Shown here: positions 14,261-30,067 of the stretch, in pieces
Layout of the letters: each line of letters begins with the position of its first letter
Numbering within the stretch: position 1 is the first letter of the stretch
DNA from: Spirochaetota bacterium
Lineage (GTDB): Bacteria; Spirochaetota; UBA4802; JAFGJZ01
Assembly: GCA_029554345.1 (NCBI GenBank)
Contig: JAKPJF010000144.1
Coordinates: 1-36,247, forward strand
DNA length: 36,247 nt
Reading direction: 5' to 3'
Made by a program: the position numbers and the translations under genes
The notes under the pieces: generated by a model
The model's database searches: none
The model's input: the letters and a program-made list of their open reading frames with translations, nothing else
What the model was told of the DNA's origin: nothing

Positions 14261-15174
14261 AGCTTGACCGTCTTTTATCTATTGTTGTAATTTTACTGAA
14301 TAAAGACAGAGTCAGCGCAAAAGAACTCGCATCAAGATTCGAAGTAACCACAAGAACTATTTATCGTGATATCGATTCAATAAACATGGCCGGCATTCCC
14401 ATAATTTCATATCCCGGAAATGATGGAGGTTTCGGAATAATGGAAAACTTCCGGCTTGAGCGCCACCTATTCACGGAAGACGACATCATCGAAGTTCTTT
14501 CAGCATTGAAAGGAATATCCGGAATCATTCAAAGCGAAAGAATCAGAAGTGCAGCCGATAAATTCAGTAACATGATAGAAAGCAAAAGAAAACCTGATTT
14601 TGACGATGATGGAATCATAATAGACATTAATCCCTGGGGTTCAGAATTAAGTATAGATATTGATTTCCGAAGTATTTACTCAGCTATACTTTCTAAAAAA
14701 CGAATATCGTTCAGTTATACAGATTATAATGGAAATTGTTCATCCAGAACAGTTGAGCCGATTAGTCTGGTTTTCAAAGCTTATTCATGGTATCTATATT
14801 CATATTGTACCGATAAGAATGATTATAGAATTTTCCGTCTTTCCAGAATTTCCGGAATAAAAGTATCAGACGAATGCTTCTGCCGAAAACAAAAAAAATA
14901 TCAGTCAGATTATATAATTAAACCGGATACTGATATTACGATAAGTTTCAAAAATTCTTTTGAAACTCAGATCGCTGAATTTTTCTCACAAAGCCGGATC
15001 AAGCAGTCCTCCGAATTTTCTGAAGTCACATTTAAAGCACAAAACGAAGAATGGCTTTATAAAATTTTACTCAGCATGGGAAAAGACATAGAAATAGTTT
15101 CTCCGAAATCAGTTAGAGAAGGTTTCAAAAATTACTTAAAAGATATATTCTATAAATATTCTTCTACTTTGTGA
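14257..15174 (+). CDS. WYL-domain HTH transcriptional regulator (YafY-like)
   Basis: A 305-residue regulator. Residues 1-60 form an HTH_11 winged helix (SIVVILLNKDRVSAKELASRFEVTTRTIYRDIDSINMAGIPI). A WYL domain lies around 130-205 (KKRISFSYTDYNGNCSSRTVEPISLVFKAYSWYLYSYC) with the SWYLY sequence that names the family, followed by a WCX-type C-terminal extension. Such proteins sense ligands, in some cases nucleotides, through the WYL domain. The gene overlaps GNAT by 4 bases and its 3' end overlaps the convergent hydrogenase-like operon by 11 bases. Confidence 0.92.
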   Translation: MKLDRLLSIVVILLNKDRVSAKELASRFEVTTRTIYRDIDSINMAGIPIISYPGNDGGFGIMENFRLERHLFTEDDIIEVLSALKGISGIIQSERIRSAADKFSNMIESKRKPDFDDDGIIIDINPWGSELSIDIDFRSIYSAILSKKRISFSYTDYNGNCSSRTVEPISLVFKAYSWYLYSYCTDKNDYRIFRLSRISGIKVSDECFCRKQKKYQSDYIIKPDTDITISFKNSFETQIAEFFSQSRIKQSSEFSEVTFKAQNEEWLYKILLSMGKDIEIVSPKSVREGFKNYLKDIFYKYSSTL

Positions 15175-16585
15175 TCACTTCAAGAGCACTGTCGATAAAA
15201 CTCTTAAAAGAAACAGGCATATATATACCTAAAATAATTACTGCTGAAACAAATATAATCTGAGGAATATAATTTCTCAATGGGAAACGCGTCTTGTCAA
15301 TATTCAATGGCGCTTCACCGACACATATTTTAAGAAGACCAAATGCAGCACCGTAAACGACAGCTGCAAGCAACACAAAGAGAAGTATAATAAGACCATA
15401 TGATTCCTTTTGCACAAGCTCCTTAAAAAGAAGAATCTCGCTGACAAACAATAATCCCGGAGGTGAAGCGATGATACAGAAAAAAGAAACAATCCAGATA
15501 ATTGCGGACATCCTGTCTGTTGAAATCAATCCGCTTACATTGAAAATTTCTTTACTGTGATACCTTCTATATATATTTCCGGTGGTTAGAAATAATGAAG
15601 CCTTTGTTAGCGAATGACCAAGAGCATGTATAAGAGCCGCAAATAAAGCGCCTCCCCCGGCATATAAACAAAGTGATAGAATACCCATATTTTCAATAGA
15701 AGAATAAGCAAGTAATCTCTTATAGTTTTTTGTTTTTTGAACAAAAACAGCTGCTGTCAAAACTGAGAGAACTCCCATGACAAGAAGAAGTGTCGATGAA
15801 AAAGAACGTATTCCTGCAAGTTCGGTAATTCTTGTAAGTTTCATTATAGCTAGAAATGCCCCATTCAACAAAGCACCTGAAAGCATTGCAGACACTGGCC
15901 ATACAGCTTCAGAATGGGCATCCGGAAGCCATGAATGAACAGGAGCCAGTCCCATCTTAGTTCCGAATCCTATCAAAGCAAAAGTATATCCGAACTTAAG
16001 CCATGTCTTATTCATCAATGGAGCATTATGATTCATCTCATAGAAAAAAAGATCAACTGAATGAGTTGATGCGGCCGAAAGAAAAATTATCCCTATAAAA
16101 GCAAAGGCTACACCGATTGAGCAAATAAATATATATTTCCAAGCCGCTTCAATCGAAGAATGCTTCTTCTCAAAATAAATAAGCATCGCACCTGAAAGAG
16201 TTGTTGCTTCAATAAAAACCCACATCAAACCAAGATGTTTGCTCATAAGAAGAGCATTAACGGCAAAAACAAAAACAAGAAGATTGAATGTATAAAATGA
16301 AGAGTCCCGCTTATTTCTTTCTTTGAGAGCGTCAATGCTGTGAAAAGAACTCCCAATAAAAAGAAAACCGGTGATGATTAAAAATAATCCGCTTAAATTA
16401 TCAACTGCAAAATACTTTTCAGTTCCGTGATACAGAAAATTAAATTTACTGAAAACAAGAAAGAAAATAATGACCGTTTGAACTATCGACCATACGGGCA
16501 AAACATATACAGAGAAACCCTTATTACGTAAAACAATCGACATTAATGCCAGCAAAAGCGGAAAATAAATAAGTAATTCGTACAT
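15164..16585 (-). CDS. hyfF: Antiporter-like membrane subunit (HyfF/NuoN type) of the Ehr-like complex
   Basis: A 473-residue protein with about 14 predicted membrane helices, of the proton-translocating NuoL/M/N family. LGLMWVFIEATTLSGA carries the conserved TM5 Glu. FGTKMGLAPVHSWLPDAHSEAVWPVSAMLSG carries the TM7 Lys and the His/Pro broken-helix region. KRLLAYSSIENMG and GHSLTKASLFLTTG are further hallmark loops with Lys. These residues form the proton or sodium path in complex I and formate hydrogenlyase. It is the last gene of the six-gene operon; the ATG at 16585 follows the previous stop by one base. The ion (H+ or Na+) cannot be told from sequence. Confidence 0.9.
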   Translation of the reverse strand: MYELLIYFPLLLALMSIVLRNKGFSVYVLPVWSIVQTVIIFFLVFSKFNFLYHGTEKYFAVDNLSGLFLIITGFLFIGSSFHSIDALKERNKRDSSFYTFNLLVFVFAVNALLMSKHLGLMWVFIEATTLSGAMLIYFEKKHSSIEAAWKYIFICSIGVAFAFIGIIFLSAASTHSVDLFFYEMNHNAPLMNKTWLKFGYTFALIGFGTKMGLAPVHSWLPDAHSEAVWPVSAMLSGALLNGAFLAIMKLTRITELAGIRSFSSTLLLVMGVLSVLTAAVFVQKTKNYKRLLAYSSIENMGILSLCLYAGGGALFAALIHALGHSLTKASLFLTTGNIYRRYHSKEIFNVSGLISTDRMSAIIWIVSFFCIIASPPGLLFVSEILLFKELVQKESYGLIILLFVLLAAVVYGAAFGLLKICVGEAPLNIDKTRFPLRNYIPQIIFVSAVIILGIYMPVSFKSFIDSALEVITK

Positions 16586-16586
16586 A

Positions 16587-17222
16587 CTAATCCTTCAATC
16601 TTGAAATATCATCAATATCGTGCTGATCAAAATTTGTTTTAATTCTGTTAATAAAAATACCAGCCAGAAACACACCGATAAAAATATCCATGGATACCCC
16701 TAAATTAACTATAAAAGGCATTTCTTTTGCTGCAGAAAGAGACAGCAGAAATATTCCGTTTTCAAGAATCATGTATCCCATAATATGAGTTATCAATTTC
16801 TTTCTAGTCGCGATTATAAAAAATCCTGTAAGCATTGCAGAAATAGAAATTCCGAAGTAAAGAGGTTCAAGAACGGCATTTGATGAAGCAGAAAGATAAG
16901 CAGTCAAAAAACCGAGAGTTAAAATTGCCGTTACAATAAAAAGTGAAGTGAAACCTGAAAAATATGACTCAACATCGCTTTTTATCTGATTCTTTCTTAT
17001 TGTCTTTAGCAAAAATAAAGGTATCATAATTGATTTAAAAAGAATTGTTTCAACACCTATTATTATAATAGAGGTAAAAGAAATGTCATGGGCGTTTCCT
17101 GCCGCCACCATAAAAAGCAGAATTCCCTGAAGCATGAGCATTTTAATATAAGATTCCAAACGGGCGGTAGTTGAAATGTAAAGGAGACTTACGCCTATTA
17201 AAACAGCGGCTATCGCGCTCAT
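16587..17222 (-). CDS. hyfE: HyfE-like membrane subunit of the Ehr-like complex
   Basis: A 211-residue protein of about seven hydrophobic segments, opening MSAIAAVLIGVSLLYISTTARLESYIKMLMLQG. The HyfE-type N-terminal helix pair and the KLITHIMGYMILENGIFLLSLSAA segment with its buried Glu resemble NuoK plus extra helices. HyfE occurs in hydrogenase-4 and formate hydrogenlyase-2 type complexes rather than in the smaller Hyc form. The start overlaps the end of the HyfC-like gene by 4 bases, and the ORF ends one base before the HyfF-like start, consistent with one mRNA. Assigned mainly from length, topology and position. Confidence 0.85.
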   Translation of the reverse strand: MSAIAAVLIGVSLLYISTTARLESYIKMLMLQGILLFMVAAGNAHDISFTSIIIIGVETILFKSIMIPLFLLKTIRKNQIKSDVESYFSGFTSLFIVTAILTLGFLTAYLSASSNAVLEPLYFGISISAMLTGFFIIATRKKLITHIMGYMILENGIFLLSLSAAKEMPFIVNLGVSMDIFIGVFLAGIFINRIKTNFDQHDIDDISRLKD

Positions 17223-18154
17223 ATTACACCTCTGAAAATTTTTAAAAAGGAAATCGCCATAACGAAAATGGCAACCGAAACCATTGTAAAAACAAAACGC
17301 GGAACATGACTCATCTTCACCCTCGCGAAAACTGATTCAATCACTCCTACAATCAGAGCTGTTCCAGCGATAATTGCAAAGAACAGGAGTATATATCTGT
17401 ATCCTACCGTCTCCTGAGGAATCAATACCGAAGCAATGATTGAACTTATAACACACATCTTAAGGCCGGAAGTATAGTTTATTAGAGCCAGCGACATACC
17501 GGAATTATCAAGAACCATCACCTCATGGATCATTGTCAGCTCAAGATGTGTCTTTGGATCATCAAGCGGAATTCTTGAACCTTCTGAAAGAAGCATAATG
17601 AAAAGAGCGACTATTATCGGCGCACCGGTAATGAAACTCCAACCGGTCGAACCTTGAATGACAAAAAGAATCTGCTGAAATGAAAGAAACCCTGTTGCAT
17701 AAACTATAGTTGTCAATAGCATCATATATGCGGGTTCTACAAACGAAGTAAATGATGCCTCACGTGCTGCTCCCATACCCTCGAAACTGCTTGCTGTATC
17801 CATCGCTCCGGCTATTGAAACAAACTTCGATAGACTCAGAAGATAAGCGAAGAAAATATAATCTCCATCAAAGCTGATTATTGAAATTCCGTAAGGTCCA
17901 GGAACAACCAGAGCGGCAAAAATAACCGCAACGAATGAAGCAACAGGAGCAAAGAAAAATATATAAGTTGTTTTTGAACTTATAACTTCAGTTTTTCTTA
18001 TAAGCTTAACAAAATCATAAAACGGCTGAAAAACCGGAGCTCCTTTTCTGCCGCACCAGATATTTTTTAGCTTATTTATGAGACCGATATAAATGAAAGG
18101 AAAAATGATAATGTAAATTCCAAACACGGCATATTTTAAAATAATTTCTTTCAT
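17219..18154 (-). CDS. hyfC: HyfC/NuoH-like membrane anchor subunit of the Ehr-like complex
   Basis: A 311-residue protein with around eight membrane helices, related to NuoH/HycD. It has the GRKGAPVFQPFYDFVKLIRK cytoplasmic loop shared with NuoH and HycD (quinone or proton-channel entry in complex I). The conserved acidic region RIPLDDPKTHLELTMIHEVMVLDNSG includes the Glu residues of the NuoH family. In group-4 hydrogenases this subunit links the hydrophilic arm to the antiporter-like subunits. It follows the HyfB-like gene after one base and overlaps HyfE by 4 bases. Intactness supports a working ion-coupling module. Confidence 0.92.
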   Translation of the reverse strand: MKEIILKYAVFGIYIIIFPFIYIGLINKLKNIWCGRKGAPVFQPFYDFVKLIRKTEVISSKTTYIFFFAPVASFVAVIFAALVVPGPYGISIISFDGDYIFFAYLLSLSKFVSIAGAMDTASSFEGMGAAREASFTSFVEPAYMMLLTTIVYATGFLSFQQILFVIQGSTGWSFITGAPIIVALFIMLLSEGSRIPLDDPKTHLELTMIHEVMVLDNSGMSLALINYTSGLKMCVISSIIASVLIPQETVGYRYILLFFAIIAGTALIVGVIESVFARVKMSHVPRFVFTMVSVAIFVMAISFLKIFRGVI

Positions 18155-18155
18155 T

Positions 18156-20108
18156 TCAGGCTCCCGCGATAATCCAGATTACTGCAGCTAGTGCAAATAT
18201 TAATCCGTATAGAATATATATCTGAGTGTTTCCTCTCTGAATGTTTGAAAAAACAGAAAGGGCATGCCGGAAGTATTTCATAAGAGGATAATATATTTTA
18301 CTTTCAAAAATATCAAAAAAACGCGCGGCAAAAAAAGCTTCCCGCGGGAATATTCCGGATACAGATGCTTTTTTGTCTTTCTGCTGAATAATTCCTGAAA
18401 TGGATGATGAAAAATTTTCTGAGAAACCGAAACCTGTATATTGAATACGGCTTGAAGGTTTATCATATCCGCATCCCCATGTATCGGAAATTTTTATCTT
18501 ATTTCTTGAAATCAAATATCTAATCAAACACATCAAAAGAATAGCTGAAGAAAGAAGAATCGAAACAAATGAAAGATTTTTAAACAGTTGAGAAATATAT
18601 CCAAAAGAGGCATAAAAATCCATTCCGAAAATATCAAGTAAAGGCCTTGAAACAAGTTTCACAAGAAATTGCGGGAAAATACCGCTTACAAATGAAATCA
18701 GTGATAATGTAATAAGCGGTAAATAAGACGATACGGATTCTTTTTCAAATTTATGCTGGGATCTTTTTTCTCCCAAAAAAATAACACTGAAAGCTTTAGC
18801 AAATGTTATCAAAGCTATCGCTCCGCTCAAAGCAAGAAGAGAAACGGCTAGAACGCTGAATGCGACATTGCCGGCAGATGGATTCTTTACAATCGCTTTT
18901 AGTAATCCAATGTAAATTGAAAATTCTCCTGCGAATCCGGCAAAAAGCGGAATTCCGCAGATTGATAGTGATGCAATTAAAAATGCAGTTCCGGCAACAG
19001 GAGCATATTTCATTACTCCGCCGAGTTTTTCAACATCGCGCGTGCCGGTTATATTCTCAACAACTTCAGCTGAATAAAAAAGAAGCGGTTTAAATATTGA
19101 ATGATTCAGAGCATGTATCAGCGCACCCGCAAAAGAAAAAATACCGGCAGTAGTATATCCGTAATGAAATGAAATTATTCCCGATCCTATTCCTATTCCT
19201 ATTATTCCCATATTCTCTATGCTTGAATAAGCTAAAAGACGCTTTATATCACGTTGAACAAATGCGAAAATTATTCCGTAAAAAGTGGTCGCAAGAGAAA
19301 CTCCCAAGACAGCATAACCGCACCACAATGGAATATCCCCGAACGAAATGAAAGTTCTCATTATTCCGTAAATGCCGAGCTTCATCATAAATCCCGAAAA
19401 AGCAGCGGAAACATGGGCGGGCATTTCAGGATATAGATGAGGAGCCCAGGGATGAAAAGGAACAAATTCAGCCTTAAAAGCAAATCCGCAAAAAAGAAGA
19501 ATAAACATGATTCCTTTAAACTGATGAGGAGCCGATAAAATAAAAGAGGAAGTATCAGCGGATATATACAGAAATGCTCCAAGAAGAAGAAACATTCCTA
19601 TATGCATAGCAGCAAGATAGTTTATTTTAAAAGGAAAATCTTCAATCTGGGAATGATTCAGCATAATCAAAGCAAACGACGAAAGAGTCATTATTTCCCA
19701 AAGAGAAATAAAAATAATGCTGTGCGAAACGGTAACGGCCAAAATCATAGCCGAGTAAAATATGGACAAAAAGAAAAAATCAAACCTGCTTGAATGTTTT
19801 TTTTTCACTGAGTTCGTGAAAGCAGAATATGAATTAAAAATAAATCCGCAGGAAAGGATCAAAATAAAAAATGAAGACAAAGAATCTATTTTAAATATAA
19901 CTTCCTTGAAAGGAAATGAAAAAATAACTGAAATACTTTCTCCCGTTAAAGAAGAAAAAAGAAGATAATTAATTGATGATAAAAGTATTATAAAAGATCC
20001 CGCAATGATCAAAAGGAATGAAACAATTTTTGAAATCTTTTTCGGAAGAATTACCGACAATAATCCGCCTGCCGAAAAAAGAACAACCGATAAAAATATC
20101 TTATTCAT
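18156..20108 (-). CDS. hyfB: Antiporter-like membrane subunit (HyfB/HycC/NuoL type) of the Ehr-like complex
   Basis: A 650-residue membrane protein of the NuoL family. SLWEIMTLSSFALIML carries the TM5 Glu. CGFAFKAEFVPFHPWAPHLYPEMPAHVSAAFSGFMMKLGIYG carries the TM7 Lys, a His-Pro-Trp and the HVSA sequence typical of HycC/HyfB. RLLAYSSIENMG and ALNHSIFKPLLFYSAE lie further on. A long C-terminal extension (residues ~520-650) includes a cytoplasmic segment and a final helix. GGGGA precedes the ATG by ~7 bases, and the start overlaps the small-subunit gene by 8 bases. A second antiporter-like subunit is encoded downstream, so the complex may pump at more than one site. Confidence 0.92.
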   Translation of the reverse strand: MNKIFLSVVLFSAGGLLSVILPKKISKIVSFLLIIAGSFIILLSSINYLLFSSLTGESISVIFSFPFKEVIFKIDSLSSFFILILSCGFIFNSYSAFTNSVKKKHSSRFDFFFLSIFYSAMILAVTVSHSIIFISLWEIMTLSSFALIMLNHSQIEDFPFKINYLAAMHIGMFLLLGAFLYISADTSSFILSAPHQFKGIMFILLFCGFAFKAEFVPFHPWAPHLYPEMPAHVSAAFSGFMMKLGIYGIMRTFISFGDIPLWCGYAVLGVSLATTFYGIIFAFVQRDIKRLLAYSSIENMGIIGIGIGSGIISFHYGYTTAGIFSFAGALIHALNHSIFKPLLFYSAEVVENITGTRDVEKLGGVMKYAPVAGTAFLIASLSICGIPLFAGFAGEFSIYIGLLKAIVKNPSAGNVAFSVLAVSLLALSGAIALITFAKAFSVIFLGEKRSQHKFEKESVSSYLPLITLSLISFVSGIFPQFLVKLVSRPLLDIFGMDFYASFGYISQLFKNLSFVSILLSSAILLMCLIRYLISRNKIKISDTWGCGYDKPSSRIQYTGFGFSENFSSSISGIIQQKDKKASVSGIFPREAFFAARFFDIFESKIYYPLMKYFRHALSVFSNIQRGNTQIYILYGLIFALAAVIWIIAGA

Positions 20109-20862
20109 ACTTTTTCCCCATAAACCTGATTAATGCATTAATAAATGTAAGTGGATGCGGAGGACATCCGGGAATATAAAGATCAACTTTGTGCTTATTA
20201 AAAAAACTTCTGTCTATATCCTTGCTTTCTGCGAATAATCCTCCGCTGATAGCACAAGTTCCCATAGCAATAATAATTTTTGGTTCAGGCACGGCAGAAA
20301 ACGTTTCTTCAAGAGCATAACTCATATTTGCTGAAACCGGACCGGTTATTACCACTCCATCCGCATGACGCGGAGAGGCAGTCACTTCAATTCCGTAACG
20401 GCCCATGTCAAAGTTTACATTTCCGCAGGCATTAAGTTCCATTTCACAGGCATTACACCCTCCTGCCGAAACAGAACGGAGCTTTAATGACCGGCCGAAA
20501 AGTCTTTTTATTTCATTTCTCGCATTAATTGAATTTGAAAAAAAAGATTCAAAATTATCGCCTTTCTTAATTATTAATTTATCTCTTAAGTCTGTTCCGG
20601 TTTTATGTTTATTCGAAAATTTAATTTTACTTTCTTTTTCTGCACACGCTCCGCAAAAATTACACTTACCCAAATCAAGTTCTATTTTATCTGAATCAAT
20701 TGCAGAAAGAGGACATTTGCCGGCAATTTGCGATATATCATCCTTTGATGCAGTTTTATCAATTATTGGAAAACCTCTGAATCTTTCATCAAGAACTGAT
20801 CCGGTTATACTTCTAACATATTGAATTCCGTGACGTTTTCTCGCATAAAGAAAATCAAACAT
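20101..20862 (-). CDS. FeS small subunit (NuoB/HycG-like) fused to one ferredoxin motif, Ehr-like complex
   Basis: A 253-residue protein. The C-terminal half is NuoB/HycG: VSAGGCNACEMELNA (C136, C139), MGTCAISGG (C203) and IPGCPPHP (C233) give all four ligands of the proximal [4Fe-4S] cluster. The N-terminal part has a single ferredoxin-type site, C50-Pro plus CNFCGAC (C67, C70, C73). HyfI/HycG has no such domain; a separate HycB/HycF or HyfH protein usually carries it. The fusion thus condenses two subunits. ATG at 20862 lies 6 bases after the large-subunit stop. Electron transfer toward an adjacent active site is inferred. Confidence 0.9.
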   Translation of the reverse strand: MFDFLYARKRHGIQYVRSITGSVLDERFRGFPIIDKTASKDDISQIAGKCPLSAIDSDKIELDLGKCNFCGACAEKESKIKFSNKHKTGTDLRDKLIIKKGDNFESFFSNSINARNEIKRLFGRSLKLRSVSAGGCNACEMELNACGNVNFDMGRYGIEVTASPRHADGVVITGPVSANMSYALEETFSAVPEPKIIIAMGTCAISGGLFAESKDIDRSFFNKHKVDLYIPGCPPHPLTFINALIRFMGKKYE

Positions 20863-20868
20863 AATTCC

Positions 20869-22323
20869 TCACAAATCGAATCCGCAATATGACAAATTGA
20901 AACTTTTATTACATACGGGGAAATCAGAGATACCGTTATCTCTCACGGCAAGCTCCAATGCGCTCCAATTATTGAATGATGGATCTTTAATCTTATAAAA
21001 CTGCGGAGCTCCATTTGAGTCAGTTATAAGAATGTGCGCTAGTTCTCCTCTCCATGCTTCAACCATTGAAACACAGAAAGAATCAGGCTTAAGAGAAAAA
21101 TGTTTATCGTCTCCGCAACCAGATAAATCATAATCAGATAATAAATTAATGGCTGTTTCAAGAGATTCAACAGCTTCAAGATAACGTAAGTATGCTCTAG
21201 AAAAAAGATCTCCTTTATCAAGAACATGTGTTTTGAATTTTAATTCTTTGTAAAAACCCCAGGGATTATCCGTTCTTACATCGCGTTTAATTCCGCAAGA
21301 TCTTGCAGCCATTCCGACTACATTAAGCTTAATCATTTCATTTATATCAACGACACATGTATCTTCAAGACGCGAAAGAACAATCGGATCTGAGAAAAAA
21401 GCTGAAGAAATTGCATTAATATCTTCAATTACCTTTCTTAGGTTTTTTACGGCTTTGTCAGCCAAGTGTTTTTCAATCGAAAACCTGTTTGAACCAATTC
21501 CTACAAATCCTCTTCCGAATCTGTTTCCGCCAAATGATTGAGAAGTATTTATAACAATAGTTCTTACGGCACCATAAAAATCCGCACCGGAAATATAAGC
21601 TATATCTCCTGCAATTGCCCCTAAGTCACCTATATGAATAGCAGCCCTTTCCAATTCGAGCATCAAGGCTCTTTGCACTTTAGTTTTTTGGTCTATTTCA
21701 AAATCACCGAGAGATTCCAATAAACCTGCATAGGCACTTGCACCTGCAACTGCGCTGTCTCCGCAAACTGATTCGGCAAGAGATCTTTTTGAAAAAATAT
21801 CGCCGTTTAAAAATAGTTGTTCAATTCCCCGTGTTTGATATCCATGCATGATTTCAAGCGAAAGAATATTTTCTCCCGCACAATTAAATCTAAAGTGACC
21901 AGGTTCAATTACTCCAGCATGAACAGGACCTACAGCAACTTCATGTGTTTCTGAACCGTTACATTTAAAAAACGGATAATTTCCGTTGATTTTTCTTACC
22001 GGCTTCAGCCATGGATGACCAACCGGTTTAATTTTATAGTTTTCATAAAGTTCACGTTCAAACAAATGAAACTGTGGAAATTTTGCAGTTAAAGAACAAT
22101 ATTCTGAATCTTTTTTTAGAATTGTTGAAATAATAGAGAGTTTATCGGATTTGTCGTCTGAAAGGACTGTGTATATTTTAACTGAATCTCCTTCAGGTAC
22201 GCCGAAAAAAGCGCATAATCTAAATTGGTCAAAAGGAATGCCGCCGAATTGCTCTATATCATATACCGGAATATCTTTTATATAAACCGGAAAGCAATTC
22301 GCAGATTGAAACGGAATATTCAT
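20869..22323 (-). CDS. Large subunit (NuoC-NuoD/HycE-like) of the Ehr-like complex, degenerate NiFe site
   Basis: A 484-residue fusion of NuoC-like (~1-110, ending FHLFERELYENYKIKPVGHPWLKP) and NuoD/hydrogenase-large-subunit-like parts (GPVHAGVIEPGHFRF to the end). [NiFe] enzymes need a CGxC pair early and a DPCxxC pair at the C-terminus. Here the first is CGDS at C187-S190, and the last residues are YCGFDL with one Cys (C480), so at least two ligands are missing. No C-terminal extension remains for endopeptidase cleavage. This matches the energy-converting hydrogenase-related (Ehr) class, whose substrate is unknown. Two ATGs exist; CGGAG is 6 bases before 22323, so that start is used. It is the first gene of the operon behind a structured leader. 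Confidence 0.9.
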   Translation of the reverse strand: MNIPFQSANCFPVYIKDIPVYDIEQFGGIPFDQFRLCAFFGVPEGDSVKIYTVLSDDKSDKLSIISTILKKDSEYCSLTAKFPQFHLFERELYENYKIKPVGHPWLKPVRKINGNYPFFKCNGSETHEVAVGPVHAGVIEPGHFRFNCAGENILSLEIMHGYQTRGIEQLFLNGDIFSKRSLAESVCGDSAVAGASAYAGLLESLGDFEIDQKTKVQRALMLELERAAIHIGDLGAIAGDIAYISGADFYGAVRTIVINTSQSFGGNRFGRGFVGIGSNRFSIEKHLADKAVKNLRKVIEDINAISSAFFSDPIVLSRLEDTCVVDINEMIKLNVVGMAARSCGIKRDVRTDNPWGFYKELKFKTHVLDKGDLFSRAYLRYLEAVESLETAINLLSDYDLSGCGDDKHFSLKPDSFCVSMVEAWRGELAHILITDSNGAPQFYKIKDPSFNNWSALELAVRDNGISDFPVCNKSFNLSYCGFDL

Positions 22324-22410
22324 CTCCATCTCCGAAGGTCAATTTCAAATAACATTAAGCTTAAGTTAACCGTGGTTTAAACCCGTACCGCATGCAGTCA
22401 ATTTCTTTTT

Positions 22411-22437
22411 AAAAAAAGAATCCGCCTCAAGGGCGGA
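22411..22437 (-). terminator. Intrinsic terminator in the leader of the Ehr-like operon (candidate attenuator)
   Basis: On the minus strand TCCGCC (22437 to 22432), loop CTTGA, then GGCGGA (22426 to 22421), followed by TTCTTTTTTT ending at 22411. No minus-strand gene lies upstream within 1.4 kb, so the terminator cannot simply end a neighbour. It sits between a possible promoter and the first gene. Confidence 0.7.
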
Positions 22438-22528
22438 TAAAATTGTCAAAATTCTTCTCATCTTTTTGAGGCAAAACAGGAGAATTACACTTTAAGGATG
22501 TAATACTTATTGATACAATCCTATAAGA
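22411..22528 (-). promoter_or_regulatory. Candidate regulatory leader RNA of the Ehr-like operon
   Basis: The minus strand carries TTGACA (22551 to 22546) and a possible TCTTAT -10 at 17-bp spacing, giving a leader of roughly 200 nt before the first gene. Inside it AATTCT (22486-22481) can pair with AGAATT (22455-22450), and GCCTCAA (22472-22466) is perfectly complementary to TTGAGGC (22430-22424), which is part of the terminator loop and 3' arm; G-U pairs extend it. These are mutually exclusive with the terminator stem, an attenuation layout. No known riboswitch core is recognised. The 88 bases between the terminator and the gene contain no ORF. Confidence 0.5.
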
Positions 22529-23175: not shown

Positions 23176-23919
23176 TTAGATATTAGCAGATAACGATGCC
23201 ATCTCTCTAACAGCAGGAATTTCTTCGGAAATCCCGCGAATAACAGTATCATCACTAAAGTCGGAAATTTTCTTTTTGATTTCAAGAAGCCTTGAAAAAG
23301 GAAGTGGAGCTATATTCTGAAACACAGGATCCAGTGCAGACTCAGAAACAAATTGCTGCAGATAAAATCTCTTTACCCTGCCGAGTGTTTTTTCAATTTC
23401 GGACAGATCTTCATCAGAACAAAACCCGTCAACACAGGTCATTCTCAATTCGTAATCAACAGACGAATTCTTTATCAAGTTAAATGACTCATTAACTTTA
23501 TCAAAATCCGCATTAACACCAGTAATGACAGGATATTTCGACGGCGATGTCTTAATATCAAGAGCAACATAATCTATGCCCAGATCAAGAGCCGTTTTAA
23601 GTTTTTCCGGATAAAACCCGTTTGTGTCAATCTTAACCAAAAGATCCGACTTTTTGAGCAAAGAAATAAACTCAATTACATCTTTCTGAAAAAGAGGTTC
23701 ACCGCCCGAAAGAACAACCGCATCGACAAGACCTTTCCGTGAAGATAAAAAAGCAAAGATATCCTTTTCGGATATCCCTCTTTTTTCTTCCGTGCTGTTT
23801 ACCAACTCGGAATTATGACAAAACCCGCACCTCAGATTGCATCCGCTTGAAAAAATCACCGTAGAAATCTTTCCGGGATAATCAATCAGAGATGTCTTCT
23901 GAAGACCTCTGATCTTCAT
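23176..23919 (-). CDS. nrdG: Anaerobic ribonucleotide reductase activating protein (radical SAM)
   Basis: A 247-residue radical-SAM glycyl-radical activase of the longer NrdG subtype. SGCNLRCGFCHNSELV supplies the CxxxCxxC cluster ligands C27, C31 and C34, and AVVLSGGEPLFQKD is the SGGEP SAM-binding motif. KIDTNGFYPEKL and DYVALDIKTS are typical later strands. It uses S-adenosylmethionine and a [4Fe-4S] cluster to generate the radical on the NrdD glycine. Its ATG overlaps the TGA of the preceding 50-residue glycyl-radical ORF (ATGA), so stoichiometry may be coupled. It is the third and last gene of the unit; no strong terminator follows, only the structured element at 23081-23163. Confidence 0.92.
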   Translation of the reverse strand: MKIRGLQKTSLIDYPGKISTVIFSSGCNLRCGFCHNSELVNSTEEKRGISEKDIFAFLSSRKGLVDAVVLSGGEPLFQKDVIEFISLLKKSDLLVKIDTNGFYPEKLKTALDLGIDYVALDIKTSPSKYPVITGVNADFDKVNESFNLIKNSSVDYELRMTCVDGFCSDEDLSEIEKTLGRVKRFYLQQFVSESALDPVFQNIAPLPFSRLLEIKKKISDFSDDTVIRGISEEIPAVREMASLSANI

Positions 23920-24068
23920 GCGTAGATTTTTTCTTCGACTTGTTCGGGAAAATACATCAATCTATCAGAAAATTCTTCCTGTTTTCCTCTGTTCCACTGA
24001 TTTACAGGTCTGAAATATCCCACAACCCTTGAATAAACTTCTACCGGAATTCTTTTTTCCTTTTCCAT
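23916..24068 (-). CDS. nrdD: Separate glycyl-radical domain of class III ribonucleotide reductase
   Basis: A 50-residue protein: VEVYSRVVGYFRPVNQWNRGKQEEFSDR. This is the C-terminal NrdD glycyl-radical segment; RVxGY holds the radical glycine, here G17. In E. coli-type NrdD it is the C-terminal end of the catalytic polypeptide. Here it has its own ATG with GGGGGA 4 bases upstream, 67 bases after the nrdD stop codon. The frame is open further back to a TTG at 24122, but no SD supports that start. The ORF ends in an ATGA overlap with nrdG. It presumably docks into the main subunit in trans, like YfiD for pyruvate formate-lyase, which is an inference. Confidence 0.85.
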   Translation of the reverse strand: MEKEKRIPVEVYSRVVGYFRPVNQWNRGKQEEFSDRLMYFPEQVEEKIYA

Positions 24069-24135
24069 GTTTCCCCCGTTTTTTGATAATAGAAACCCAA
24101 TCCCTAAAAGGGTCTGAGACAAATATAGTTCATTT

Positions 24136-26199
24136 TTAAATTGATGCTATTTTTTTTTCCGCATTTTCATCCTGCAGAACAATTCCGAATCTTTCTAAAT
24201 CTTCCTTGCTGTGTTCGTAAGGACAAAATTTATGCGCACCGGGAATATACCCGTGAATTGGACAAATCGAAAATGTCGGAGTCAAAGAGAAATACGGAAG
24301 ATGATAGTTTTCCGCAATCTTTTTTACTAGAGCTTTTGCCATCTGAGGATCCTGAATGTTTTCACCAAGAAAAGCGTGAACAACAGTTCCTCCGGTAAAC
24401 TTAACCTGCAATGCGTCCTGATGGTCAAGAATATCAAAAATATCATCTGTATGATTTACAGGCAGATGAACAGAATTTGTATAATACGGAGCATTGTCTC
24501 CTGATGTAATAATATCAGGAAATTCAGCCTTATCATTCTTTGCGAATCTGTATGAAACCCCTTCAGCCGGAGTAGCTTCAAGATTATAAAGATTTCCGGT
24601 TTCCTGCTGATAAGACATTATTCTTTCTCTCATATAATCAAGAACTTTTACAGCAAAAGCTTTACCTTCTTTTGTTGAAATATCTTTTCCGAAAAGATTA
24701 CATAGAGCTTCATTCATTCCGACAAGCCCGATGGTTGAAAAATGGTTCAGCCAGAACTGCTTATTTCTTTCGAATATATCTCTAAGATAATGTTTCGTAT
24801 ACGGATACAGATTGCTGAGAGTGAAACTCTCAAGAACCTTTCGTTTTATTTCAAGGGACTCTTTCGCCAAATCCATGAGTTCAGCAAGACGCTTGAAAAA
24901 CTTATCTTCATCTTTAGTAAGATACGCAAGACGCGGAAGATTAATTGTTACAACACCTATACTTCCGGTTAACGGATTAGCACCGAAAAGTCCGCCGCCG
25001 CGTGAACGCAATTCACGGTTATCAAGTCTCAGCCTGCAGCACATAGAACGGGCATCTTCAGGCTTCATATCGGAATTAACAAAATTGGCAAAATAAGGAA
25101 TTCCGTATTTCGCAGTCATTTCCCACAGCTTATCAAGCTTCTTATTATTCCAGTCAAAATTTTTACCTATGTTGTAGGTAGGAATAGGAAATGTGAAAAT
25201 TCTGTTCTTTGAGTCGCCTTCAAGAAGACATTCGCAGAAAGCGGCATTGAACATGTCCATTTCTTCCTGGAATTCGCCGTATTTAGTATCAAGATATTTT
25301 CCGCCTACGACTACATAATCATCTTTAATATTTTCAGGAACAATCAAATCAAGAGTCACATTGGTAAACGGAGTCTGAAATCCTACCCTGGTAGGAATAT
25401 TCATATTAAAGAAAAATTCCTGCAAAGACTGTTTAACTTCCTTGTAGGTAAGTTTATCATAACGGATAAAAGGAGCAAGAAACGTGTCGAAATTCGCGAA
25501 TGCCTGAGCTCCTGCTGATTCTCCCTGTAGAGTATAGAAAAAATTCACTATCTGCCCTAGAGCCGTTCTAAAATGCTTAGGTGCCTTTGATTCAATCTTT
25601 CCGACAACTCCTCCGAAACCGGATAGAAGAAGATCTTTTAAATCCCAGCCGACACAATAAGCAGAAAGAAGACCCAAGTCATGAAGATGAACATCGCACG
25701 AATTATGAATGTCTCTTATTTCAGGCGGATAAATTCTTTCAAGCCAGTACTTTGCAGTTAACGCAGAAGCAAGATGATTATTAAGCCCCTGCAGGGAATA
25801 ACTCATATTGCTGTTTTCTTTAACTCTCCAGTCACTGCGGTCGAGGTAATTGTCTATAAGATCAAGCCCCTCATTCATGAGAGTTTTGCTGTCACGGATT
25901 TTTCTATGCTGATCTCTGTAAAGAATATACGCCTTTGCTACCTTAGCGTGACCCTTCTCTATCAGAATTTTTTCAACAAGATCCTGAATATTCTCAACAG
26001 TCGGAACTCTGCCGTCTTTATATATTATCTCAAGAATATCAACAACCGAACGCGTAACACCTTCTGATTTTTCATTGTCTGTTCCGCCTACTGATCTGGC
26101 TGCTTTAAAAACAGCTTCAGAAATCTTTTTCGGATCAAACTCAGCCAACCGGCCGTCGCGTTTTAAAATGAATTTCAGTGATGAACGAAGTTCTGGCAT
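24136..26199 (-). CDS. nrdD: Anaerobic (class III) ribonucleoside-triphosphate reductase, main subunit lacking the glycyl-radical segment
   Basis: A 687-residue protein reducing NTPs to dNTPs without oxygen. Residues ~5-95 are an ATP-cone (LKFILKRDGRLAEFDPKKISEAV) for allosteric control. The barrel contains SMCCRLRLDNREL and GGGLFGANPLTGSIGVVTINLPRL, family-typical active-site segments. The C-terminus has CPIHGYIPGAHKFCPYEH in the place of the zinc-binding CxxC..CxxC; each pair keeps only one Cys, with His residues nearby. It ends right after this region, with no RVxGY motif; that motif is on the next ORF. ATG 26199 is preferred over TTG 26226 (AGG upstream). The 260-base upstream region holds a small TCGC/GCGA hairpin (26256-26268) but no clear regulator box. 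Confidence 0.92.
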   Translation of the reverse strand: MPELRSSLKFILKRDGRLAEFDPKKISEAVFKAARSVGGTDNEKSEGVTRSVVDILEIIYKDGRVPTVENIQDLVEKILIEKGHAKVAKAYILYRDQHRKIRDSKTLMNEGLDLIDNYLDRSDWRVKENSNMSYSLQGLNNHLASALTAKYWLERIYPPEIRDIHNSCDVHLHDLGLLSAYCVGWDLKDLLLSGFGGVVGKIESKAPKHFRTALGQIVNFFYTLQGESAGAQAFANFDTFLAPFIRYDKLTYKEVKQSLQEFFFNMNIPTRVGFQTPFTNVTLDLIVPENIKDDYVVVGGKYLDTKYGEFQEEMDMFNAAFCECLLEGDSKNRIFTFPIPTYNIGKNFDWNNKKLDKLWEMTAKYGIPYFANFVNSDMKPEDARSMCCRLRLDNRELRSRGGGLFGANPLTGSIGVVTINLPRLAYLTKDEDKFFKRLAELMDLAKESLEIKRKVLESFTLSNLYPYTKHYLRDIFERNKQFWLNHFSTIGLVGMNEALCNLFGKDISTKEGKAFAVKVLDYMRERIMSYQQETGNLYNLEATPAEGVSYRFAKNDKAEFPDIITSGDNAPYYTNSVHLPVNHTDDIFDILDHQDALQVKFTGGTVVHAFLGENIQDPQMAKALVKKIAENYHLPYFSLTPTFSICPIHGYIPGAHKFCPYEHSKEDLERFGIVLQDENAEKKIASI

Positions 26200-26462
26200 T
26201 ATCAACCTACTACATTGTATATTCAATATTTAAACGAAAGCAATAGAATCCCGGCTCGCAAAAAGCGATTCTCCAACTTCTCTTTTATAGGGTAATGGAG
26301 AGACTACTTTGCTGATGACGAAAGTCAATAAAAAAATTATGTCTCGTTTTTTATTTTTATCAAGATTTTTTTCTAAATACCGATAAGCTCTAACAGACAT
26401 AGTTTTCTTATTGGAGATGAAATCTGTCAAAGATATTTTAAAAAATTTTTGAGGTGCTTTTT

Positions 26463-28957: not shown

Positions 28958-30067
28958 TTAAACTTTTATAAGTTCATATTCATTATTCCCGATGCCTATT
29001 TCCACTGCATGTTTGATTCCTGACTTCCAGTTTGTTTTAGGGTAAATATGATTAAATTTATCATTACCTTCAGAGTAACCCGTTTTTTCCAAAACAGAAC
29101 CCGTTGTCATTGCAGAAGAGTTAACCATATCAGCACATGCCGCATCAAGAGCGACCGGATCTTTTGAAGCAGCTATTCCGATATCACGGACTATTGCAAC
29201 ATCATTATGTCCCCAGCAATCGCAATTCGGTGAAACATTCATTATAAAATTTATATGGAAATGCTGTTTGCCTTTTAAAACAGCAAGCGTATATTCAGAG
29301 ATTTTTTCCGTGCAGGTTTCAGCTCCTTCATTCCAGACTACTTGAGCAGAATCGAACATGCACACAGCTACACACTGTCCGCATCCGATGCATAAATCAT
29401 AATTGATTGAAGCTTTTTTAACAGAATCAAAAGCTATTGCTTTCTGTGAACAATTCTTTACACAAACACCGCAGGATACACATTTTTCCTTTTCTATTTT
29501 AGGTTTTGAAGCAGAATGCATTTCCATCTTGCCGCCGCGTGAACCCGAACCCATTCCAAGATTTTTTAATGCTCCGCCGAAACCTGTCATCTCATGTCCC
29601 TTGAAATGATTAAGAGATAAAATAACATCAGAATCGGCTATTGCACTGGCAATCTTTGCGGTTTTGCAGTGCTTTTGATTTATTTCAATTTCTCTGTATT
29701 CAGTTCCTTTTAATCCGTCGGCTATAATTACATTGCAGTTAGTCGCAAGATAATTAAAGCCGTTGGCATGGGCTGTCCAGAGATGATCAACAGCATTCGC
29801 CCTTTTCCCGACATAAAGAGTATTAGCGTCTGTCAGAAAAGGTCTTCCTCCTTTCTCTGCAATGAAATCAACTACAACACGCGCGTAGTTGGGCCGGATA
29901 TATGCAAGGTTTCCCCATTCACCAAAATGAATCTTAATAGCAGTAAATTTATCTTTATAATCAAGATCACCGGCTCCGGCAGAAACAATCAAATGCTTCA
30001 GCTTGTCCGTCAGATTATTGCCCGGTTTGGTATTCAAGTCTGTAAAAAAAACTTTTGATTTTGACAT
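28958..30067 (-). CDS. DUF362 domain protein with two [4Fe-4S] ferredoxin motifs
   Basis: A 369-residue protein. The N-terminal DUF362 domain contains TAIKIHFGEWGNLAYIRP and ILSLNHFKGHEMTGFGGALKNLGMG. Next comes a ferredoxin insert with two complete cluster motifs, CVSCGVCVKNC (C196-C206) and CIGCGQCVAVC (C226-C236). The DUF362 fold continues with NVSPNCDCWGHND and ASKDPVALDAACADM. The family is widespread in anaerobes; it is annotated only as an FeS-binding protein and may pass electrons in maturation or dehydrogenase reactions. It is monocistronic; AGGC lies upstream of the ATG. It lies 31 bases beyond cobO on the same strand, so read-through is possible. Confidence 0.9.
   Translation of the reverse strand: MSKSKVFFTDLNTKPGNNLTDKLKHLIVSAGAGDLDYKDKFTAIKIHFGEWGNLAYIRPNYARVVVDFIAEKGGRPFLTDANTLYVGKRANAVDHLWTAHANGFNYLATNCNVIIADGLKGTEYREIEINQKHCKTAKIASAIADSDVILSLNHFKGHEMTGFGGALKNLGMGSGSRGGKMEMHSASKPKIEKEKCVSCGVCVKNCSQKAIAFDSVKKASINYDLCIGCGQCVAVCMFDSAQVVWNEGAETCTEKISEYTLAVLKGKQHFHINFIMNVSPNCDCWGHNDVAIVRDIGIAASKDPVALDAACADMVNSSAMTTGSVLEKTGYSEGNDKFNHIYPKTNWKSGIKHAVEIGIGNNEYELIKV

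Follow-up and report, generated by a model that had tools for sequence, protein, structure and literature searches.

The window analysed here is a stretch of 36,247 nucleotides (contig JAKPJF010000144.1, assembly GCA_029554345.1) from a bacterium of the phylum Spirochaetota, and it contains six tightly packed genes for subunits of a membrane complex of the Ehr (energy-converting or Ech hydrogenase-related) group. The genes lie on the minus strand between positions 15164 and 22329, have intergenic gaps or overlaps of 1-8 bp, and are all intact. The first encodes a large subunit of 486 amino acids (20869..22329), NuoC/D-like with a HycE fold, which matches the Pfam families Complex1_49kDa (2e-31) and Complex1_30kDa. 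An alternative start at ATG 22323 has a better ribosome site (GGAG 6 nt 5' of the ATG); we number residues from ATG 22329, and C187 and S190 of an earlier note on this DNA, counted from ATG 22323, are C189 and S192 here. The small subunit (20101..20862, 253 amino acids) consists of an N-terminal ferredoxin domain fused to a NuoB/MbhJ-like domain (Oxidored_q6, 2e-27; PDB matches 6cfw_J and 7z0s_G). Next come a HyfB/HycC-like antiporter subunit of 650 amino acids (18156..20108; match to subunit 3 of formate hydrogenlyase [FHL], 1e-50), a HyfC/NuoH/MbhM-like subunit (17219..18154; NADHdh, 3e-29; MbhM, 1.4e-19), a HyfE-like membrane subunit (16587..17222), and a HyfF/NuoM-like antiporter subunit (15164..16585; Proton_antipo_M, 1e-45). 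The HyfB-like subunit also matches Proton_antipo_M (2e-38). The HyfE-like protein matches the NCBIfam model NF008556, "hydrogenase 4 membrane subunit", at 1.4e-16 and falls just under the Pfam cut-off (25.9 versus 26.1 bits).

Residues that form the ion path in related complexes are present throughout the membrane arm: E138, K212, K243, H336, and K340 in HyfB, E126, K210, and K328 in HyfF, and the acidic channel of HyfC (E132, E140, E191, D198, D199, E205, and E211). The features on which the earlier note relied, namely the six packed genes, the large-subunit sequences CGDS and YCGFDL, the NuoB-type cluster ligands, and the antiporter Glu and Lys residues, are all in the window. Judged by its residues, the membrane arm is a complete ion-pump set built from hydrogenase parts. 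An independent genome of the same genus carries the operon at 89% identity with identical motifs, and dN/dS between the two is 0.06-0.09, indicating that the genes are under purifying selection and that the unusual motifs reflect neither sequencing error nor decay.

Placement within the Ehr family

A scan of named-species genomes detected more than 570 Ehr-related loci across many phyla and groups, including Melainabacteria, Bacteroidota, Verrucomicrobiota, Planctomycetota, Myxococcota, and Thermodesulfobacteriota. Uncultured bacteria commonly carry Ehr complexes. From the scan we retained the best 80 loci, those nearest to the query, and the counts below describe such a selection and are not prevalences. 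The closest named-species match is a Spirochaete locus (L073), and approximately 30 relatives from the same phylum match at 36-50% identity. In a tree of 72 large subunits (66 Ehr and 6 NiFe), all Ehr sequences, including that of the window, form one clade with support of 100/100, separate from the group 4 NiFe large subunits of Spirochaetes; a 130-row tree that included Nuo sequences gave the same split between Ehr and NiFe. The genus of the window groups beside loci L056 and L057 (97/94). The assignment to Ehr made in the earlier note is thus borne out by the tree, which places the large subunit outside bona fide NiFe enzymes, as well as by the motifs, the intact channel residues, and the lack of a detectable HypD in this genome and its three nearest relatives.

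At most of the approximately 100 Ehr loci compared, the operon consists of the six genes alone. The sole recurrent extra gene encodes a fusion of HTH_17 and PTS EIIA_2 domains, probably a regulator, at the head of or inside the operon at 40 loci (for example, L034:3440-4114). It is absent at the window operon, and elsewhere in the genome only PtsN-like matches were found. In the sister locus L056 (10007-12862), and also in L057, the operon continues with genes for a signal peptidase and for AccD and AccA, the bicarbonate-using carboxyltransferase of acetyl-CoA carboxylase.

The large-subunit cavity

The cysteine motifs that bind the NiFe center in hydrogenases, L1 and L2, were compared in 110 Ehr large subunits and 14 NiFe references, all 14 of which have CGIC and DPCxxC. 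In the window, L1 reads C189-G-D191-S192 (21754..21765, minus strand). Position 1 is Ala in 85 of the Ehr sequences, Cys in 14, Ser in 6, Val in 3, and Thr in 2; position 3 is Asp in every one, and position 4, the second ligand site, is never Cys. The L2 region ends the protein with the signature N474-K-S-F-N-L-S480-Y481-C482-G483-F-D485-L and a stop codon (20869..20910, minus strand), and both L2 ligand positions are occupied by Ser (S480) and Gly (G483) in 110/110 Ehr. C482, found in 89 of the 110, lies between these two sites, where bona fide hydrogenases mostly have Ser or Ala. The proposal that the Cys of YCGFDL is a remnant of DPCxxC therefore does not hold, and L1 position 1 is the only one of the four NiFe ligand sites in the window protein with a Cys. 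Nor does that Cys appear to be a survivor. The tree requires three separate gains, in the window genus, in Gastranaerophilales, and in L091, and L056 and L057, the closest to the window genus, have Val; C189 is therefore best described as regained rather than retained, contrary to the idea that one Cys was kept per motif. The Cys accompanies loss of a His in L1: residue 196 is Tyr or Gly in 13 of the 14 sequences with C189 and His in 84 of the 96 others. A dithiol pair of C189 and C482 in the cavity was considered and rejected, as C482 is present in 12/14 sequences with C189 and 77/96 without it, which is no association.

Other features of the cavity are strictly conserved. D191, N474, K475, S480, Y481, and D485 are invariant in 110/110 Ehr, and all of these except D485 differ from every NiFe reference. 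In the GPVHAGVIEP loop (H137 to E142; 21904..21921, minus strand; aligned to 6cfw_L and 2fug_4), H137 and E142 are present in all 110 Ehr and all 14 NiFe sequences, and E142 aligns with the proton-delivery residue E21 of MbhL in the membrane-bound hydrogenase (MBH). In an ungapped alignment to 2fug_4, the places of the complex I quinone residues, Nqo4 H38 and Y87, are taken by I141 and G190. An AlphaFold2 model of the large subunit (pLDDT 84, with low values in the L1/L2 and GPVHAG loops) has FHL HycE and MBH as its nearest folds, with HycE (7z0s_E) as the top PDB match at a TM score of 0.86. Taken together, the alignments predict a conserved pocket unlike the three characterized ones, which retains the proton-delivery Glu and has none of the features of a NiFe site, the H38/Y87 quinone site, or the sulfane-sulfur reductase MBS.

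Iron-sulfur clusters and relatives without N2

The NuoB/MbhJ-like domain of the small subunit has the four ligands of an N2-type proximal [4Fe-4S] cluster, C136, C139, C203, and C233 (20164..20457, minus strand). Its GCNACE sequence aligns to MbhJ without a gap, as a CxxC loop of the MBH type. By alignment, the ferredoxin domain retains the ligands of its cluster II (C50, C67, C70, and C73; 20644..20715, minus strand), which we take, by analogy with NuoI, to be an N6b-type cluster, the one nearest N2. Every ligand of ferredoxin cluster I is gone. Cluster II is present in all Ehr small subunits except five that are truncated or lack the domain, and cluster I is retained in about half. The earlier note suggested that the ferredoxin fusion marks a distinct subgroup; it is found on nearly all Ehr small subunits. 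The N6b-like and N2 clusters could together conduct electrons from ferredoxin into the cavity.

The N2 ligands have been lost in 32 of the 104 Ehr small subunits in which these positions are readable (L038, L046-L048, L054, L061-L065, L089, L095, L096, L099, L101-L103, L110, L115, L116, L118, L121, L126, L128, L131, L133, L134, L138, L143, and L147-L149). The replacements differ between lineages: a Bacteroidota clade that includes some Spirochaetes has D-C/A-D-N, clade f11 has N-x-E-D, and certain Verrucomicrobia and Planctomycetes have x-x-x-W. Parsimony gives six changes, and in the 72-row tree the well-supported branches alone force at least three; the f11 sequences are long-branched, and their replacements differ from those of other clades. 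Small subunits with N2 remain the majority and are spread across the tree, and one genome (G009) carries both types, N2-plus L045 and N2-less L047. The loss does not appear to be decay, because the membrane ion-path residues are alike in both groups with few exceptions, the large-subunit pocket signature is unaltered, and dN/dS within N2-less pairs is 0.04-0.16. These relatives thus seem to retain the pump machinery without the terminal N2 cluster. A substitute NuoB-like protein was sought in three f11 genomes, and the only other one fits complex I. No report of N2 loss in Ehr was found in the literature searched; the founding papers (Coppi 2005; Marreiros 2013), which lay outside that search, may mention it.

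The HTH-EIIA gene is present at 35 of 71 N2-plus loci and 3 of 32 N2-less loci. Many N2-less Bacteroidota operons have an extra HyfB-like antiporter gene (~670 amino acids) directly upstream (L089, L102, L110, L115, L128, L133, and L134). In f11, the gene that follows the N2-less small subunit encodes a SulP-family or Na+-dependent bicarbonate (Sbt_1) transporter at 5/5 loci (L061:6949-8562, L062:2871-4484, L063:7587-8567, L064:11392-14444, and L065:7010-8605). Other loci with a SulP gene no more than 10 kb from Ehr are L053, L105, L112, L123, L131, and L146.

Possible function and comparison with known systems

The genome of the window (3.03 Mb in 214 contigs, 96% complete) was searched by protein family for partners of the complex. 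It contains a single 49-kDa-type subunit, the Ehr large subunit itself. HypD was not found in this genome or its three nearest relatives (G000-G003), while control genomes matched; the other hyp genes were not searched. The prenyltransferase UbiA was not found in G000 or G001 and was matched in 14/14 controls. The lack of HypD, of a second 49-kDa subunit, and of UbiA argues against chemistry with H2 or quinones. Ferredoxin-linked families are present, namely 2-oxoacid:ferredoxin oxidoreductase, [FeFe] hydrogenase, and Rnf. We considered Ehr as a replacement for Rnf since RnfC seemed absent, and rejected this idea because the rnfD-G-E-A genes are located at one end of contig C154, where the contig break truncates the cluster, and because Rnf is also present in most Ehr genomes. 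The partner oxidoreductase that the earlier note proposed to look for did not emerge in the vicinity of the operon, and the genome yielded no cytosolic FdhA; a conserved neighboring oxidoreductase was likewise rejected, as none recurs among 80 operon-neighbor proteins. Upstream of the operon in the window are genes for the anaerobic ribonucleotide reductase NrdD and its activase NrdG (23176-26226), which fits an anaerobe, with a terminator-like hairpin (22420-22438) between them and the Ehr genes, and 6.6 kb upstream is a gene for a DUF362 protein that also contains a 4Fe-4S dicluster ferredoxin domain (28958-30067).

The operon holds the full gene set of an Ehr complex, a relative of complex I and group 4 hydrogenases that has neither a NiFe nor a quinone site and cannot make hydrogen. 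In our estimation, there is about an even chance that it is a ferredoxin-driven, proton-involving ion pump with a proton-requiring acceptor. Reduced ferredoxin would dock at the fused ferredoxin domain of the small subunit, and electrons would pass through one [4Fe-4S] cluster (N6b-like) and the N2-type cluster to the acceptor in the cavity between the large subunit and HyfC. Binding or reduction of the acceptor may shift three interfacial loops, after which HyfC, HyfF, and HyfB would export ions. In favor of this reading are the intact N6b-like and N2 ligands, the conserved ion-translocation residues, purifying selection, the invariant E142 and Ehr-specific pocket residues, the ferredoxin-linked metabolism of the genome, and the closest folds, FHL HycE and MBH. 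The genes, motifs, tree position, ligands, and channel residues are observed, as are purifying selection and the lack of HypD and UbiA, whereas we infer ferredoxin as the donor, the direction, the class of acceptor, and the ion. Several points weigh against this proposal. Neither an acceptor nor, in the window and most relatives, a partner enzyme within 10 kb of the operon was found, and the absences from this draft genome are not absolute. Furthermore, because N2 is lost in 32/104 small subunits while all pump residues stay, redox drive through N2 must be dispensable in at least part of the family. A pump driven by a non-H2 reaction, as the earlier note envisaged, remains the likeliest reading for the window complex, and the relatives without N2 show that its redox part does not extend to the family as a whole.

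The same N2-less relatives argue for a different kind of machine that is not redox-driven at its core, an Mrp-like ion- or solute-coupled transporter with a non-redox ligand in the large-subunit pocket, in which the ferredoxin-domain cluster merely senses or gates and N2 is a relic still kept by the window lineage. The loss of N2 in at least three lineages with differing replacements, unchanged channel residues and pocket signature, and dN/dS of 0.04-0.16, together with the bicarbonate-transporter family gene next in the f11 operon, speaks for this alternative, to which we assign well below an even chance. Against it, no N2 or N6b-like ligand is missing from the window complex, Ehr that bear N2 outnumber the others and occur throughout the tree, and in the clades that lost N2 the loss may reflect a function altered secondarily. 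Slightly less probable still is the broader claim that the whole Ehr family is something other than a redox pump, with a complex I-type membrane arm run by a non-redox pocket reaction, a dispensable iron-sulfur wire, and at least one branch (f11) that may serve bicarbonate or CO2 supply.

Explanations that borrow a known reaction fare worse. Reduction of polysulfide on the proximal cluster with ferredoxin electrons, as in Pyrococcus MBS, is attractive in that MBS also pumps ions without a NiFe site and keeps two large-subunit Cys (PMC7684303). We think it improbable, since MBS relies on a loop three residues shorter that leaves one Fe free, compared to the four-Cys, MBH-type CxxC cluster of the window; its Cys are at L1 position 1 and L2 position 1 (SLDNCPPDIDR), and C482 is two residues beyond; the MbhL-E21 Glu is absent from MBS and present in 110/110 Ehr; and the window large subunit matches MBS weakly (1.4e-13) compared to MBH (4e-31). 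Four same-phylum relatives (L156, L159, L170, and L171) have bacterial large subunits of the MBS type, with one Cys per motif (CVPD and CPPD/CPPE), and that of L159 matches MBS (6u8y) at 4e-106. A partnership with formate dehydrogenase, proposed for Riflemargulisbacteria (PMC6349859), is if anything a shade less probable than the MBS-like reaction. In its favor are the rise of Geobacter Ehr on formate (PMC7894505) and the position, just upstream of Ehr in L046 and L048, of two genes, one for a molybdopterin enzyme and one for a NuoE/F fusion, but formate dehydrogenase-type genes do not recur beside Ehr across 100 loci, and the one weak Molybdopterin match in the window genome is an exported-type enzyme (TAT-like signal) with a DmsB-like partner on a separate contig. 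The missing NiFe ligands, and a 2026 paper that calls Geobacter Ehr non-functional (PMC13194489), could suggest a hydrogenase that is dead or in decay, or else a true one whose sequence was read wrongly. This explanation is refuted by the conservation of the motifs, and we give it almost no credence: the same-genus genome has the same motifs under purifying selection, related loci occur in many phyla, the motif changes are common to all 110 sequences examined, and the six genes are intact.

No proven case of an Ehr substrate or activity was found in the literature searched. The window genome, in which HypD, UbiA, and cytosolic FdhA were not found, speaks against the usual answers and offers a simple background for finding the Ehr reaction. 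The N2-less relatives are the surprising part for specialists, and they make the driving force of Ehr testable by comparison of N2-plus and N2-less complexes, both of which occur in G009. If the N2-less complexes still pump, complex I-type coupling needs no terminal cluster, which bears on electron-ion coupling in complex I.

Known Ehr include GSU0739-0745 of Geobacter sulfurreducens and those of Riflemargulisbacteria and Melainabacteria (PMC7894505, PMC6349859). The window complex resembles them in lacking NiFe ligands and in having the same set of six subunits, with two that are antiporter-like, HyfC, HyfE, and a ferredoxin-fused small subunit, and it shares the large-subunit signature of the Ehr relatives collected here. 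It appears to be an ordinary but intact Ehr with three small peculiarities, namely a gene order of large-small-B-C-E-F instead of the usual B-C-E-F-large-small, a single ferredoxin cluster following loss of cluster I, and the regained Cys at L1 position 1; it also lacks the upstream HTH-EIIA gene and the L1 His. Group 4 [NiFe] hydrogenases (FHL/Hyf, 7z0s; MBH, 6cfw) have the same fold, membrane arm, N2 ligands, and counterpart of E142, but the window complex has Cys at only one of the four ligand sites, and no HypD was found. MBS (formerly Mbx, 6u8y) likewise resembles complex I, pumps ions, and has no NiFe site; it forms a distinct sequence group (e.g., L159) and lacks the MbhL-E21 proton-delivery Glu (PMC7684303), in contrast to the window complex, which keeps this Glu and a four-Cys proximal cluster and has its L2 Cys in a different register. 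Respiratory complex I (Nuo) shares homologues of NuoB, C, D, H, K, L, M, and N with the window complex, which differs from it in having I141 and G190 in place of the quinone residues H38 and Y87, no NADH module, and no UbiA found in its genome.

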